A DNA stretch of 38,286 nt, from the NCBI GenBank assembly GCA_018053845.1, contig JAGPKU010000019.1:1-38286 (forward strand), written 5' to 3'. Positions 30,068-36,251 of this stretch are shown here, piece by piece. Position numbers and translations under genes: made by a program. Source of the DNA: Syntrophobacterales bacterium (GTDB lineage Bacteria > Desulfobacterota > Syntrophia > Syntrophales > UBA2192). The notes below the pieces were generated by a model, which was given only the letters and a program-made list of their open reading frames with translations, did not search any database and had not been told where the DNA came from. Positions within the stretch are counted from its first letter, which is position 1. Each line of letters starts with the position of its first letter.

Positions 30068-30883
30068 TCATTTTCCCTTCCCCAGCTCCCTGGAGCGCAG
30101 GGTCGCCGCCTCGACGGCCGAGATGAGGGCCGAGCGAAGCCCGCCCGCCTCCAGGGCCTGGATGCCGGCGATCGTCGTCCCGCCGGGCGAGGTCACCATG
30201 TCCCGCAGCTCTCCGGGGTGCTTGCCGCTGTCGAGAACCAGCCTGGCCGCCCCCAGGAGCGTCTGGGCCGCCAGCTTGACGGCCACGTCGCGGGGCAGCC
30301 CCATGAGCACGCCCCCGTCGGAGAGCGCGTCGATGACGATGAACCCGTAGGCCGGGCCGCTGCCGGAGAGCCCCGTCACGGTGTCCATGAGGTCTTCCTT
30401 GACGACGACCGTCACGCCCAGGGCGTCGAAGATCTCGCGGGCCGCGGCCAGGTCGGCCCCCGAGGCCGATTCGCCGGCCGCCAGAGCCGCCGCCCCCTCG
30501 CCGACGAGGGCCGGCGTGTTGGGCATGACCCGGACGATGGGAACGCCCTTCCTGAGGTGCTCGGCGATGAAACGGATGGGGATCCCGGCGGCGATCGAAA
30601 TCACGAGCTTTTTGCGGTCGATGACGGGGGACAGCTCCTTGAGCACATCGCCCATCCCCTGGGGCTTGACGGCCAGGATGACGATGTCGGCTTCCCGGGC
30701 GGCCTTGCGGTTGTCCTCCGTCACGGCGACGGCGTACTTGCCCTTCAGGTAGGCCAGCCGGTCGGGAACGATGTCGGTCACGGTCACGCCTGCGGGCTGG
30801 GCCAGGCCGGCCTTCAGGATGCCGCCGGCGATGACCTCCCCCATCTTCCCCCCGCCGATGACGACAATCTTCTTTGCCTTCAT
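30068..30883 (-). CDS. proC: Pyrroline-5-carboxylate reductase
   Basis: The last step of proline synthesis: NAD(P)H reduction of pyrroline-5-carboxylate. The 271-residue protein has the N-terminal dinucleotide fold VVIGGGKMGEVIAGGIL, VILAVKPQ, RVMPNTPALVGEGA, and the C-terminal signature GLSGSGPAYGFIVIDALSDGG with QTLLGAARLVLDSG and VTSPGGTTIAGI. GGAGGGAG lies upstream of the ATG. It is divergent from yggT across 248 bp; proC-yggT adjacency is common across bacteria, although usually on one strand. Confidence 0.96.
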   Translation of the reverse strand: MKAKKIVVIGGGKMGEVIAGGILKAGLAQPAGVTVTDIVPDRLAYLKGKYAVAVTEDNRKAAREADIVILAVKPQGMGDVLKELSPVIDRKKLVISIAAGIPIRFIAEHLRKGVPIVRVMPNTPALVGEGAAALAAGESASGADLAAAREIFDALGVTVVVKEDLMDTVTGLSGSGPAYGFIVIDALSDGGVLMGLPRDVAVKLAAQTLLGAARLVLDSGKHPGELRDMVTSPGGTTIAGIQALEAGGLRSALISAVEAATLRSRELGKGK

Positions 30884-31072
30884 GATGTTGGCTCCCTCCT
30901 GTTTTTATCCGCCCGGCGGGGCCGAAGGTCCCCCGTCTGGCATGAATCTTGTTATTACCTCGTCATGGCACCGGACTGCCCGCCCGGGTGCAGGCGGGGG
31001 CCGGGATGGCCCCGCGGAGGCCACCTCCGGGAAACCCCGCACCGGGTGCGGGTTTCCGCCAGAATATAAGCC

Positions 31073-31101
31073 TTGACATTTACGAACTCAACTTTTATTT
31101 T
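31073..31101 (+). promoter_or_regulatory. Sigma-70-type promoter candidate for yggT-divIVA
   Basis: A perfect -35 TTGACA (31073-31078), 17-bp spacer, TATTTT (31096-31101), 31 bp upstream of the yggT start. A stem-loop (GGAAACCcCGCA/TGCGGGTTTCC, 31030-31057) lies just upstream in the divergent region. Confidence 0.55.
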
Positions 31102-31131
31102 CGAACTCCTGCTTTTTTCGAAGGGTACGCG

Positions 31132-31434
31132 ATGTTCCTTGTAGCCAATTTGCTGGAGGCCTTTGCCAGGATCCTTGACGTGGCGCTGGGCCTCTATACC
31201 TGGGTGATCATCATCCGCGCCCTTCTGTCCTGGGTAAACCCCGACCCCTACAACCCCATCGTCCAGTTCCTGTACCGGGCGACGGAGCCGGTCCTGCGGC
31301 CGGTGAGGCGGTGGCTGCCCCTGAGAAACCTCGGCATCGACCTTTCGCCCGTCATCGTCATCGCGGCGATTCTGTTCCTGCAATATTTCCTGGTCCCGAG
31401 CCTGATCCAGACGGCGTTCAAGCTCCGGTCCTGA
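31132..31434 (+). CDS. yggT: YggT/YlmG family membrane protein
   Basis: A 100-residue protein of one YggT repeat: two hydrophobic segments (about 2-35 and 68-92) around a conserved WVNPDPYNPIVQFLYRATEPVLRPVRRWLP region. Gram-positive and chloroplast YlmG homologues lie near division genes and influence nucleoid or septum organisation; the molecular function is unresolved. The ATG at 31132 has AAGGG 6 nt upstream and a good promoter candidate. The DivIVA-domain gene follows after 3 bp. Confidence 0.93.
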   Translation: MFLVANLLEAFARILDVALGLYTWVIIIRALLSWVNPDPYNPIVQFLYRATEPVLRPVRRWLPLRNLGIDLSPVIVIAAILFLQYFLVPSLIQTAFKLRS

Positions 31435-31437
31435 CGG

Positions 31438-33927
31438 ATGGCGTTTGTGAAGATTTCCCCGAAAGACGTCCGGCAGCGGCAGTTCAAGAAAGGCTTCACG
31501 GGATACGACCCCGAGGAAGTCGGCGCGTACATGAAGGCCGTGGCCGCCGAGCTGGAGCGCCAGATCGAGCAGAACGCCCGCCTCTCCGAGCTCATCGCCG
31601 ATCTGGAGAAGAAGCTCACCGTCCTGAAGGTCAAGAAGATCTTCGGCGGCAAGGAGAAGGGCGAAGACCTCCCGCCCGAGGTCAAGAAGGACGTCGAGCA
31701 GATCCTCGCCGACGCGAAGGCCAAGGCCGAGGGAATGCTCAGCGCGGCGAAGGCCGAGTCCGATGCGCTGCGGGCCAAGATCAAGGAAGACACCGCCAAG
31801 GAGTTCGAGAAGCAGTACGGGCAGATGCTCGAGGAGGCCCGCGCCCACCAGCTCAAGACCCAGCTGCTGCAGCTCCAGGCCGAGGAGAACTACAACAACA
31901 CCGTCGCCCAGGCGAAGGCCAAGGCCGAGGAACTCGTCCGGGAAGCCACCGCGAGACGTGACGAGCTCGCGGCGCGCATCCGCGAGGAGTACCGCGCCGA
32001 GGCCGAGAGGCTCATGGCCGAGACGAGGGGCCGGGCGGAGAAGATGCTCGAAGAGGCCCGCAGCGAGGAGGCCGCGCTCGGGCAGGCGCTGGACCTCGAA
32101 GGGGCCCGGCAGCAGGCAAACGACGTCATTGAGGAGGCCCGGGCCCGCGCGAAGGAGATCGTCGGCGCGGCGCGCCGGGAGGCGGAAACGCTCGCCGTCC
32201 GTCAGGTGGAAGCCGCCGGGCAGGAAATCGAGCGCGCGAAGGCCGAGGCCGAGGCGATCCTGAAAAAGGCCCGCGAGGAGGCCGCCGCCCTCAGGGAAAA
32301 GCAGCAGGCGGAGCTGGCCAAGGAGCTCGAGCCGAAGGCAAAGGAAATCCTCTCCGAGGCGCAGGCGCGGGCCGAGAAGATCGTCCGGGAGGCCGAGGCC
32401 AAGGCCAGAGAGCTCGAACCGAAGGCGGACGAGCTGCTCTCCGGCGCCCGGGCCCGGGCCGACAAGATCGTCAAGGACGCCGAGACGGCGGCATCGGAGC
32501 TGAAGAGACGGCAGGAAGAGGTCCTGGTCAAGGAACTCAAGGCGAAACGCCAGGAGATGGTCGGCGAGGCCCAGGCCGAGGCCGAGGCGATCCTGAAAAA
32601 GGCCCGCGAGGAGGCCGCCGAGCTGAAAAGCCGGCAGCAGGAGCCGTCGCGGGAGGCCGATCCGAGGGCGAAGGAACTCATCGCGGACGCGCGGGAGCGT
32701 GCCGCGCGGATCCTCAAGGAGGCCGAGGCCCAGGCGGCCGAGCTCATGGCCCGGCAGCAGGAGATCGTGGAGAAGACCTTCGAGGAGAAGCGCAAGGAGC
32801 TCTTCGATCAGGCCAGGGCCGATGCCGAGCGGGCCGTCGTCGAGGCCCGCAAGGAAGCCGAGACGATCCGGGCGAAGATGAAAGCGGAGGCCGTCGACGC
32901 CGCGCACAAGGAGTACAAGGCGATCCTGGAGAAGGCGGGGGCCGACGCCGAGGCCCTCCTCAAGGAGGCCGGGGGTCTCCTGGCGGCGCAGGACAAGGCC
33001 CGGGAAGCGGAAAAGAAATCGGCCGAGCTTCTCGAAGAGGCGAAGAAAAAGGCCGACGACATCATCAACCGCGCCATGATCGAGGCCGAGGACCACCGGG
33101 CGAAGCTGCAGGAGGATCTGGCGAAGGAAGCCGAAAGGAAAACGAAGGAAATGCTCTCGCAGGCGCAGGCGCAGACCGATCAGCTCCTTGCCGCCGCCAA
33201 GGCCGAGGCGGAGAAGCAGACCCGCAAGTGGAAGGAAGAGGCCCTGAAGGACGCCGAGAAGCAGGGCCAGGGCCTCATCGCCGAGGCGAAGGTCCAGGCC
33301 GAGAAGATCCTCAAGGAGGCCGCCGCGCAGGCATCGGTCCAGAGGGAAAAGCTCGAGGAGGAAAACCGGAAGGCCCACGAGACGCTGCTCGCGGACGCGA
33401 AGGCCCGGGCCGAGAAGATTCTCAAGGAAGCCGAGGGCCAGGCGGCCGCCCTGAAGGCCAGGCTCGCCGAGGAGGGCCGAAAGGAGCAGGAGAAGATCCT
33501 GGCCGAGGCGAAGGCCCAGGCCGAGGCGTACCTGAAGAAAGCCCAGGCGGAGACCGACCAGGACAAGGCCAGGAACGCCGCCGAGGGTCAGGTTGCGGGG
33601 CAGAACCTCCAGGCCCTGCGCAACGAGGTCGAGATCCTCACCGAGGAGATCGAGAAGCTCAAGAACCTCAAGGCCTGGCACGAGAAGGACTTCTTCTCGT
33701 TTCTCACCTTCAACCTCGAGCTGCTCGAGACCTGGAAGAAAGGCCTCGACATCCCCATCCCCGTGAATACCGGCCGCTCCGAGGCGGACCACCTCCGCGG
33801 CGAGATCAAGAAGCTCTCCAACATCAAGAACCAGCTCGAGAAGTACTTCGAGTCCTTCATGGATTTCAACCAGAAGCTGCTCGAGGCGATGAAGAAGGGG
33901 AGCGCCGACTGGGACGGCATCCAGTAA
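31438..33927 (+). CDS. Giant DivIVA-domain coiled-coil protein
   Basis: An 829-residue protein. Residues 4-60 match the DivIVA N-terminal lipid-binding domain (SPKDVRQRQFKKGFTGYDPEEVGAYMKAV). Residues about 85-715 are almost pure Ala/Glu/Lys/Arg coiled coil, with recurring AKARAEKILKEAE-like units and a near-exact 47-bp DNA repeat (32241-32287 and 32574-32620, 111 codons apart), showing internal duplication. The last ~110 residues are less repetitive (KAWHEKDFFSFLTFNLELLETWKKG, NQLEKYFESFMDFNQKLLEAMKKG). DivIVA proteins are usually 150-350 residues and mark curved membrane at poles and septa. Its start is 3 bp after yggT with no clear ribosome site, implying coupling. The function is inferred from the N-terminal domain only. 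Confidence 0.82.
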   Translation: MAFVKISPKDVRQRQFKKGFTGYDPEEVGAYMKAVAAELERQIEQNARLSELIADLEKKLTVLKVKKIFGGKEKGEDLPPEVKKDVEQILADAKAKAEGMLSAAKAESDALRAKIKEDTAKEFEKQYGQMLEEARAHQLKTQLLQLQAEENYNNTVAQAKAKAEELVREATARRDELAARIREEYRAEAERLMAETRGRAEKMLEEARSEEAALGQALDLEGARQQANDVIEEARARAKEIVGAARREAETLAVRQVEAAGQEIERAKAEAEAILKKAREEAAALREKQQAELAKELEPKAKEILSEAQARAEKIVREAEAKARELEPKADELLSGARARADKIVKDAETAASELKRRQEEVLVKELKAKRQEMVGEAQAEAEAILKKAREEAAELKSRQQEPSREADPRAKELIADARERAARILKEAEAQAAELMARQQEIVEKTFEEKRKELFDQARADAERAVVEARKEAETIRAKMKAEAVDAAHKEYKAILEKAGADAEALLKEAGGLLAAQDKAREAEKKSAELLEEAKKKADDIINRAMIEAEDHRAKLQEDLAKEAERKTKEMLSQAQAQTDQLLAAAKAEAEKQTRKWKEEALKDAEKQGQGLIAEAKVQAEKILKEAAAQASVQREKLEEENRKAHETLLADAKARAEKILKEAEGQAAALKARLAEEGRKEQEKILAEAKAQAEAYLKKAQAETDQDKARNAAEGQVAGQNLQALRNEVEILTEEIEKLKNLKAWHEKDFFSFLTFNLELLETWKKGLDIPIPVNTGRSEADHLRGEIKKLSNIKNQLEKYFESFMDFNQKLLEAMKKGSADWDGIQ

Positions 33928-34165: not shown

Positions 34166-34465
34166 ATGCTGACCCTCAAGGAAACCCCGACCGGCGTGCA
34201 GTTCGCCGTCCGCGTGGTCCCCGGGGCCTCGAAGAACGAGGTGTCGGGCATCCAGGACGATGCCCTGAAGATCCGGCTGACGGCGCCGGCCGTCGAGGGG
34301 AAGGCGAACCGGGCCTGCGTCGATTTCCTGGCCGGCCTGCTCGGGGTTCGCCGCTCGGCTCTGGCCATCGCCTCGGGAGAGAAATCACGAAGGAAGACCG
34401 TCACGGTCGGGGGGATCGGCCGCGCGGTGCTGGAGGCCCGCCTGAAAGGTCTCCTGGGGCCCTGA
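34166..34465 (+). CDS. yggU: DUF167 / YggU family protein
   Basis: A 99-residue protein with the DUF167 core: VVPGASKNEVSGIQDDALKIRLTAPAVEGKANRACVDFLAGLLGV, then SGEKSRRKTVTVGG. Structures of the family show a small alpha/beta fold; the function is unknown. yggU commonly neighbours yggT and proC, as here with divIVA and a repeat element inserted between. The ATG at 34166 has only a weak GGA upstream. murJ follows. Confidence 0.93.
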   Translation: MLTLKETPTGVQFAVRVVPGASKNEVSGIQDDALKIRLTAPAVEGKANRACVDFLAGLLGVRRSALAIASGEKSRRKTVTVGGIGRAVLEARLKGLLGP

Positions 34466-34652
34466 GGCAAAGACCGGAGAAAAGGACCGGGACCCTCATC
34501 CGGGCTTGACGCGGTTGAGGGTCCTTCTGTATGAGTGTGAAGCTCCCGTTTTCAGGACGGCCCGCACCCGGTACGCTCATGTGCGCGAGGCCCGCCCCTT
34601 CCTCCTCTCTAAAGGGGCATGGAGGGGGATTTCCCGGAGCAACCGATTCCCG

Positions 34653-36251
34653 ATGACGTTGGATACGCATCCGTCCCCGCAGGAAACCGAGAACCGCCGC
34701 GTCGCGAAGGCTGCGGGCGTGGTGGGCCTCGCCACGATGCTCTCGCGCGTCTTCGGCTTCATCCGCGACGTCGTCGTGGCCCGCTACTTCGGCGCGGGGC
34801 TCGCCACGGACGCCTTCTTCGTCGCCTTCCGGATTCCGAACCTGCTGCGGCGCCTCTTCGCCGAGGGCTCGCTCACCATCGCCTTCGTGCCCGTCTTCAC
34901 GGAGTACCTCAAGACAAAATCGCGGCAGGATGCCTTCGAGCTGGCCCGGGTGGCCTTCACGCTCCTGTCGGTCATCCTGGCCGTCGTCTCGATCGCGGGC
35001 GTCCTGCTGTCGCCCGCCATCGTCACGCTCATGGCCCCGGGCTTCCGGGCCGCGCCGGACAAGTACGCCCTCACGGTGCTGCTGACTCGCATCATGTTCC
35101 CCTACATCTTCTTCATCGCCCTGGTGGCCCTGTGCATGGGGATCCTGAATTCGCTGCGCCACTTCGCCACCCCGGCGCTGTCGCCCGTCATCCTGAACCT
35201 CTGCATGATCGCCGCGGCGCTCACCCTGCAGGACTGCTTCGCCGAGCCCGTCGTGGCCCTGGCCGTGGGCGTCATGATCGGGGGGTTCCTGCAGCTCGCG
35301 GTGCAGCTGCCCGTGCTCTTCCGGCTGGGCGTTTCGCTCAGGCCCGATTTCCGCTTCGGCCACGAAGGCGTGCGCCGCATCGGCCTTCTGATGCTGCCCG
35401 CGGCCTTCGGCGCCGCCGTCTACCAGATCAACATCTTCATCGGCACCCTGCTGGCCTCGTTCCTGCCCGAGGGAAGCGTCTCCTTTCTCTACTACGCCGA
35501 CCGCATCGTCGAGCTGCCCCTGGGGATCTTCGGCATCGCCATCGGCACGGCGGCCCTGCCGAGCTTCTCCGACCAGGTGGCCCGCGGGCAGTACGACGAG
35601 ATGAAGCGGACGATCTCCTTCTCGCTGCGGCTCATGCTCTTCATCACGATTCCCGCCATGGTCGGGATCATCGCCCTGCAGGAGCCCATCATCTCGGTGC
35701 TCTTCCAGCGCGGCGAGTTCGACCCGCGCTCGGCGGTGCTCACGGCGCAGGCCCTCTTCTGGTATGCCGTGGGCCTCTGGGCCTTCTCCACCATCCGCGT
35801 GGTCGTGGCCGCCTTCTACGCCCTGCAGGACACGAAGACCCCCGTCCGGATCGCCGTCGCGGCCCTCATCGTCAACACCGCGTGCAGCGTGGCCCTCATG
35901 TTCCCCCTGAAGCACAGCGGGCTGGCCCTTGCCACCTCCATCGCCTCGGCCGTCAACGTCCTCACGCTGGGCTGGCTGCTGAGAAAGCGGATCGGGCGGT
36001 TTCTCGACGCCTCGTTCTGGGGATCCCTGGCCCGCGTCACCGCCGCAGCCGCCGTCATGGGAGTTGCCGTGTCCCTGACAATTCACGTTTTGGGCTGGGA
36101 CGTGACGGCGCCCTTCCGGCATCGCGTAACGGTCCTCGGCGCGGGACTCGCCGCGGGGATCGCCGTTTTTTCGATCTGTGCCGCTGCCCTCCGCTGCCCG
36201 GAAATGACGACGCTCGCCGGCATGGTCCGCCGCAGGCTCGGCCGCCGCTAG
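34653..36251 (+). CDS. murJ: Lipid II flippase MurJ (MviN)
   Basis: Flips lipid II across the inner membrane for peptidoglycan synthesis. The 532-residue polytopic protein of the MOP superfamily has about 14 helices; AAGVVGLATMLSRVFGFIRDVVVARYFGAG, DAFFVAFRIPNLLRRLFAEGSLTIAFVPVF and the mid-protein YYADRIVELPLGIFGIAIGTAALPSFS with LFQRGEF are diagnostic. The ATG at 34653 gives a normal-length protein; the region upstream in frame (to 34506) is not conserved-looking. The ribosome site is poor (GGAG about 14 nt away), so the start is less certain than the identity. Confidence 0.95.
   Translation: MTLDTHPSPQETENRRVAKAAGVVGLATMLSRVFGFIRDVVVARYFGAGLATDAFFVAFRIPNLLRRLFAEGSLTIAFVPVFTEYLKTKSRQDAFELARVAFTLLSVILAVVSIAGVLLSPAIVTLMAPGFRAAPDKYALTVLLTRIMFPYIFFIALVALCMGILNSLRHFATPALSPVILNLCMIAAALTLQDCFAEPVVALAVGVMIGGFLQLAVQLPVLFRLGVSLRPDFRFGHEGVRRIGLLMLPAAFGAAVYQINIFIGTLLASFLPEGSVSFLYYADRIVELPLGIFGIAIGTAALPSFSDQVARGQYDEMKRTISFSLRLMLFITIPAMVGIIALQEPIISVLFQRGEFDPRSAVLTAQALFWYAVGLWAFSTIRVVVAAFYALQDTKTPVRIAVAALIVNTACSVALMFPLKHSGLALATSIASAVNVLTLGWLLRKRIGRFLDASFWGSLARVTAAAAVMGVAVSLTIHVLGWDVTAPFRHRVTVLGAGLAAGIAVFSICAAALRCPEMTTLAGMVRRRLGRR

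Follow-up and report, generated by a model that had tools for sequence, protein, structure and literature searches.

A giant DivIVA-domain protein with a hendecad-type rod and a doubled tail at the divIVA locus of a Syntrophales family

The divIVA locus and its giant gene

The window, by which we mean the whole stretch of 38,286 nucleotides analyzed here, is a single contig (JAGPKU010000019.1) of a Syntrophobacterales genome (GCA_018053845.1; 2.65 Mb in 162 contigs). It carries a very long divIVA gene together with conserved neighbors, and the features discussed below, with the evidence for each, are as follows.

30068..30883, minus strand: proC, divergent conserved neighbor (domain profile, locus comparison)
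31132..31434, plus strand: yggT, conserved neighbor 3 nt upstream of the giant gene (domain profile, locus comparison)
31438..33927, plus strand: giant divIVA gene, 829 aa (open reading frame listing, PF05103/TIGR03544, orthologues, codon-position pattern)
31438..31635, plus strand: DivIVA-like head, residues 1-66, comprising a short helix, a GYD-motif loop, and a dimerizing helix (profiles, weak AF2 model)
31636..31677, plus strand: linker, residues 67-80, of the KIFGGKEKGEDLPP type, conserved in the genus (orthologue alignment)
31678..33576, plus strand: rod, residues 81-713, of amplified A..IL..A hendecad-type units with a period of 3.69 (motif counts, periodicity, repeats)
32240..32287, plus strand: first copy of a 48-bp exact repeat, in the unit at residue 271 (repeat search, orthologue alignment)
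32573..32620, plus strand: second copy of the 48-bp exact repeat, in the unit at residue 382 (repeat search, orthologue alignment)
33637..33744, plus strand: DivIVA tail copy 1, residues 734-769 (copy alignment, short-tail profile)
33745..33792, plus strand: proline-bearing linker between the tails, residues 770-785 (orthologue alignment; non-helical gap in both AF2 models)
33793..33900, plus strand: DivIVA tail copy 2, residues 786-821 (copy alignment, short-tail profile)
34166..34465, plus strand: yggU (DUF167), conserved neighbor (domain profiles, locus comparison)
34506..36251, plus strand: murJ, conserved neighbor, given as the open reading frame was listed; its true start is probably further in (domain profile, locus comparison)

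The giant gene runs for 829 codons from an ATG located 3 nt past the stop codon of yggT. Its differences from four orthologues fall mostly at the third codon position (e.g., 55, 50, and 139 differences at positions 1, 2, and 3 for the orthologue of genome G004), and this excess, together with antisense stops in three of the four orthologues, indicates that the plus frame is the coding one. An antisense open reading frame at 30955-33792 (945 aa) was rejected as a gene, being less conserved, interrupted by these stops, and opposed by the codon-position pattern. No match to phage families was found.

Comparison of the surrounding genes placed the giant in a familiar setting. In all six short-DivIVA loci compared within the order (L004-L008 and L010; DivIVA of ~150 aa), yggT and yggU adjoin the gene and murJ lies beyond, and a divergent proC is present in four, the other two loci being short. 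Among the giant loci of other genus members (n = 5), the proC/yggT start was found in five, yggU in four, and murJ in three, with the contig ending in the fifth locus, which has no yggU. Ten further loci from the phylum contained yggT in ten cases and yggU in eight. Because the giants occupy the conserved proC / yggT-divIVA-yggU-murJ locus of the short DivIVAs, divIVA appears to have been enlarged in place; as judged from gene order and sequence, the giant represents the cognate DivIVA of its Syntrophales family, residing at the ancestral divIVA locus. The short DivIVAs used for comparison were collected with a regular expression that found 16 of 18 loci (missing L010 and L052) and whose cuts shortened the N-termini in L005, L058, and L059 and overran in L043.

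Head, rod, and doubled tail

The earlier note on this DNA had described a convincing DivIVA N-terminal domain, and profile searches agreed with it. Pfam PF05103 matched residues 6-121 (E 3.9e-13; 49.9 bits against a curated cut-off of 28), and NCBIfam TIGR03544 (DivIVA domain) matched residues 6-39 (35.8 bits against a cut-off of 22). A profile built from the window protein and six related N-termini matched Bacillus subtilis DivIVA (2wuj; E 4.8e-7), Wag31 (6lfa), and GpsB chains in the PDB. F20 of the giant aligns with F17 of 2wuj, and T21 occupies the position of R18; F17 and R18 form the membrane-contacting pair of B. subtilis DivIVA. Head helices were placed at residues 8-19 and 25-68 by the full-length AF2 model with weak confidence. 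A single PF05103 stretch was found in the giant, where PolyDIV proteins have at least two DivIVA-like heads per chain, and the Wag31 model (NF050102) gave 100.6 bits against an equivalog cut-off of 260.

The consensus head motif RGYDxxEVD reads TGYDPEEVG in the giant, with G, Y, D, E, and V retained and with R and the last D replaced. This second D is described as bonding across the dimer in solved structures (PMC9858780); with its loss, the giant heads may pack differently from those of short DivIVAs. The survey in PMC9858780 relied on a search pattern, GY[DN]xx[QE]V[DN], that GYDPEEVG does not fit, and it would therefore have passed over the giant. Across the genus, the motif (31501-31524; residues 22-29) ends in EVG, and in the sister genus it ends in EVA; in short relatives the second D is mostly kept, as EVD or EVE/EVG-type variants.

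The coiled coil of some 630 residues that had been noticed behind the head was recovered as a rod of ~633 residues. Its unit motif consists of Ala, two residues, an aliphatic pair, two further residues, and Ala or Gly. The window protein contains 18 such units, the giants 13-20 each (n = 6), and 16 short DivIVAs 0-2 each; shuffled versions of the window protein averaged 1.4 and had at most 6. Common spacings between units in the rod are 11, 37, 41, and 82. With the broad hydrophobic set ILVMFA, the period peaked at 3.69-3.74 in all six giants (3.69 in the window rod), above all 200 shuffles of each, and almost no power was seen at the heptad value of 3.5; with a narrower residue set lacking Ala, the peak in G003 merely equaled that of the best shuffle. 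On these counts and periods, the rod is hendecad-type and not heptad, its period reflecting hendecads mixed with longer repeats, and the single hendecad-type unit of the short DivIVAs is multiplied to 13-20 copies in the giants. A hendecad-type period is described as giving a nearly straight or slightly right-handed coil with an Ala-rich core (PMC9858780). The full-length AF2 model (single chain; mean pLDDT, 60.8) showed breaks in the rod at residues 216-220, 399-408, 513-519, and 639-642. At a coil rise of 0.148 nm per residue, the 633 residues correspond to an estimated length of ~94 nm.

Within the rod, two copies of an exact repeat lie 333 nt, or 111 codons, apart. The earlier note had reported this spacing correctly with an identity of 47 bp, which our repeat search corrected to 48 bp. 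None of 500 synonymous resamplings of the gene reached 48 bp (maximum, 41), placing the identity beyond codon bias. The recent duplication that had been read from this identity was not supported, since in the five genus orthologues both units occupy matching alignment positions (271 and 382 in G002, G004, and G006; 271 and 411 or 433 in G005 and G003). The units are thus older than the genus, and since they are co-located in orthologues whose own copies differ, the 48-bp identity is best read, at the sequence level, as homogenization of old units, in which only the identity is recent. A genuine recent tandem copy of 123 nt (41 aa) is present in G004, and relative to the window, G005 gained 29 residues and G006 lost 77, which shows that the rod is still changing.

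The distinct C-terminal region mentioned in the earlier note turned out to consist of two canonical DivIVA tails, at residues 734-769 and 786-821. The two copies are identical at 20 of 36 residues, with an ungapped score of 86 compared with a shuffle mean of -25.8 and maximum of 48 (20000 shuffles), and the best match of each copy within the protein is the other. A profile built from the tails of 7 of the 16 short order-level DivIVAs matched both copies in five of the six giants (22.9-37.1 bits; best of 240 shuffles, 4.2 bits), the exception being G002, in which a frame break cuts off copy 2. Both copies are also present in the sister genus. Copy 2 is nearer than copy 1 to the short DivIVA form, and the window protein shares 86-96% identity with four orthologues across its last 121 residues. 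By these alignments, the C-terminal region corresponds to an ordinary DivIVA tail present twice. Modeled by AF2 as a single chain, the last 121 residues formed two helices with a break between them (mean pLDDT, 69.1). A search with the C-terminal alignment against solved structures returned designed TIM barrels (E 3e-7, with no single stretch passing by itself) and other odd matches, all of which were judged to be compositional chance.

The closest comparison is with the short DivIVAs of Desulfobacterota and Syntrophales (e.g., L006 and L008), which have the locus, head family, unit, and tail sequence in common with the giant. They differ in their size of ~150 aa, their one unit and one tail, and their EVD motif, in contrast to the EVG of the giant head.

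Distribution and host

The order survey covered 155 genomes with matches taken at E 0.001, and 39 of them had any DivIVA match. Giants (752-887 aa, with a DivIVA head) were found in six of the seven genomes of the genus, with lengths of 829 aa in the window genome (G000), 795 aa in G002 (broken tail), 887 aa in G003 (an unresolved N gap inside the gene), 870 aa in G004, 865 aa in G005, and 752 aa in G006; the seventh, G001 (77% complete), showed only a paralogue. In the sister genus (G007) the giant is split, with its first 505 residues at one contig end and its last 157 on another contig beside yggU. No giants outside the genus and its sister genus were seen among the 155 genomes of the order. 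Eleven other order genomes with a near-complete N-terminal match had frames of 151-256 aa, and in the phylum samples (394 and 395 genomes) the longest non-family frame among the matches listed was 383 aa, so that the description of the protein as very long was upheld by the comparison of orthologues. Order-survey frames of 1002, 522, and 409 aa were sub-cut-off, matched only at internal coil positions, and were not counted as DivIVA. Named carriers, corresponding to five loci among 98 pattern-matching stretches, are the metagenome-assembled genomes (MAGs) Syntrophales bacterium Prado119, Syntrophaceae bacterium UBA2192, UBA5744, and two 'Deltaproteobacteria' MAGs.

No DivIVA match was obtained in 116 of the 155 Syntrophales genomes, and most genomes of the window's genus have two or three DivIVA-domain proteins. 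Each of the seven genus genomes has a paralogue frame, 325-337 aa long, with 434 aa open in G001. The window genome holds two copies of its 327-aa paralogue (C21, L002:1492-2475; C60, L003:685-1668), which are 99.3% identical in DNA and share a neighbor gene, the longest matching stretch with flanks being 94% alike; the pair is explained either by duplication or by a mixing of strains in the assembly. G003 encodes a third protein with a DivIVA domain (C35, L041:3203-5107; 634 aa; PF05103, E 2.3e-18). It carries a long hendecad-like rod of its own and, toward its end, one tail-like stretch, and may be a second, independent instance of rod growth within the genus.

The Gram-negative host that had been proposed from the sequence accords with the presence of LptD in all eight genomes searched, including that of the window; since LptD is present there and in relatives, the host is diderm. 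MreB was present in all 41 genomes. MinC was found in 1 of 41 genomes overall and in none of the eight family genomes, which makes a MinC-type (MinCD) role unlikely. Chromosome segregation or wall growth are candidate roles of the giant DivIVA.

Possible function and related systems

Our data rather favor a cognate DivIVA, enlarged in place, that acts as a membrane-anchored polar or septal scaffold with a ~94 nm rod and a doubled tail. Its head, locus, rod type, and doubled tail can be read from the sequence itself, and for its localization and partners we infer the following. Two chains would pair as a parallel dimer whose heads would, by analogy with known DivIVA, bind where the inner membrane is strongly curved, at poles and septa, by inserting their conserved Phe (F20). 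The dimer would bear a near-straight or slightly right-handed rod of ~94 nm ending in the doubled tail. Because each chain carries two loop-joined tails, one dimer would bring four tail helices, by which tail-to-tail joining could be strengthened or closed within one dimer. The C-terminal coil is reported to oligomerize DivIVA dimers in several phyla (PMC12585849), and the doubled tail may be likened in mechanism to the head duplication of PolyDIV, which has been argued to turn a dimer into a monomer (PMC9858780). Such a protein would serve as a long-reach scaffold at poles or septa, holding partners far from the membrane, or would build a pole mesh, and the giant may work like DivIVA and actinobacterial Scy/FilP in one chain. 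In Bdellovibrio, a diderm, DivIVA is reported to be polar and septal (PMC7186360, PMC11025332), and its deletion had no visible phenotype in one study (PMC11025332). We also put forward, tentatively, an independently built, Gram-negative single-chain polarisome, in which a DivIVA head, a hendecad rod similar to that of Scy and ~94 nm long, and a double tail that pairs with itself would be combined and in which length would be tuned by phase-keeping gain and loss of units to give a ruler or mesh at the pole of MinC-less cells.

The giant could instead be an intermediate-filament-like cytoskeletal protein, its rods assembling laterally and end to end to stiffen the cell and its head serving as the assembly end in a FilP-like manner, which we consider unlikely. 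Such a role would suit an Ala-rich hendecad rod (23% Ala); FilP rods of 37 nm are reported to bundle with a 60-nm repeat via head and tail contacts (PMC6599971), and the NCBIfam Scy model (NF041483) matches the rod at E 1.3e-10. That match, however, amounts to just 39.6 bits against an equivalog cut-off of 1040, and because models of ATP synthase b, V-ATPase E, and FliH match the rod too, it reflects coil type and not relatedness. The canonical divIVA locus and tail favor DivIVA function.

It is similarly doubtful that rod length is neutral or nearly so, a product of unit slippage in a GC-rich repetitive gene whose function is the same as that of a 150-aa DivIVA. The variation among giants from 752 to 887 aa, with in-frame gains and losses of units in G004, G005, and G006, is what slippage would leave, and conservation is highest in the head, the next 100 residues, and the tail and lower in the rod. 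Yet no giant has fewer than 557 rod residues under the cut applied in the periodicity analysis, the period is coherent along the whole rod in all six, and residues 1-160, which include a stretch of rod, are nearly invariant across the genus. The three large indels amount to 11.11, 7.86, and 20.87 turns of 3.69, near whole turns, although these are three cases only and two small indels, one of 1 residue and one of 6, do not keep the helical phase.

A membrane-to-nucleoid tether or ruler, holding a C-terminal partner site (ParA/ParB or ProC/YggS-type) ~90 nm from the pole, seems improbable to us. It would fit the unlikelihood of a MinCD role in the MinC-less family genomes and the presence of ParB in 9 of 11 genomes searched, including that of the window, and it has a precedent in the reported link of Bdellovibrio DivIVA to ParA through a ProC homologue (PMC7186360), proC being an adjoining gene here. 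ParB was, however, not found in G002 and G005, and proC is divergently transcribed. That the giant gene is an assembly artefact of repetitive metagenomic DNA is scarcely credible: the carriers are mostly MAGs, with the N gap in G003, the broken tail in G002, and the two contigs of G007, but six assemblies, including the 5-contig G004, agree on the architecture.

For the lengthened cognate DivIVA that we favor, FilP/Scy is the nearest architectural parallel, separately evolved and convergent. The two have in common a DivIVA-like head, a long Ala-rich hendecad rod behind it, and growth by unit expansion (PMC9858780), a likeness and not a kinship. Scy is described as lacking the N-terminal helix, which the giant keeps, and as reported in PMC9858780, Scy and FilP come only from Actinobacteria and from other loci, whereas the giant retains the divIVA locus and a doubled DivIVA tail. 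PolyDIV resembles the giant in intragenic amplification within a DivIVA-like protein but multiplies the head (PMC9858780), where the giant multiplies rod unit and tail. Bdellovibrio DivIVA shares the diderm host, and ProC and YggS homologues are reported as its operon products; the parts of PMC7186360 and PMC11025332 used here report no extended rod for it, in contrast to the giant.

Literature searches on DivIVA in Desulfobacterota, Syntrophales, or Syntrophus returned no paper, and thus none on a giant DivIVA. Rod growth by hendecad expansion has been described for FilP/Scy as an actinobacterial event (PMC9858780). The giants would add a second case of rod growth, in a diderm phylum and in the ancestral divIVA gene itself, with orthologues differing in rod length. 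With rods of 1 to 20 units available under one type of head and tail, the role of rod length in DivIVA would become directly testable. Collectively, the giant DivIVA illustrates how a short scaffold may become a long one without the gain of a new domain.
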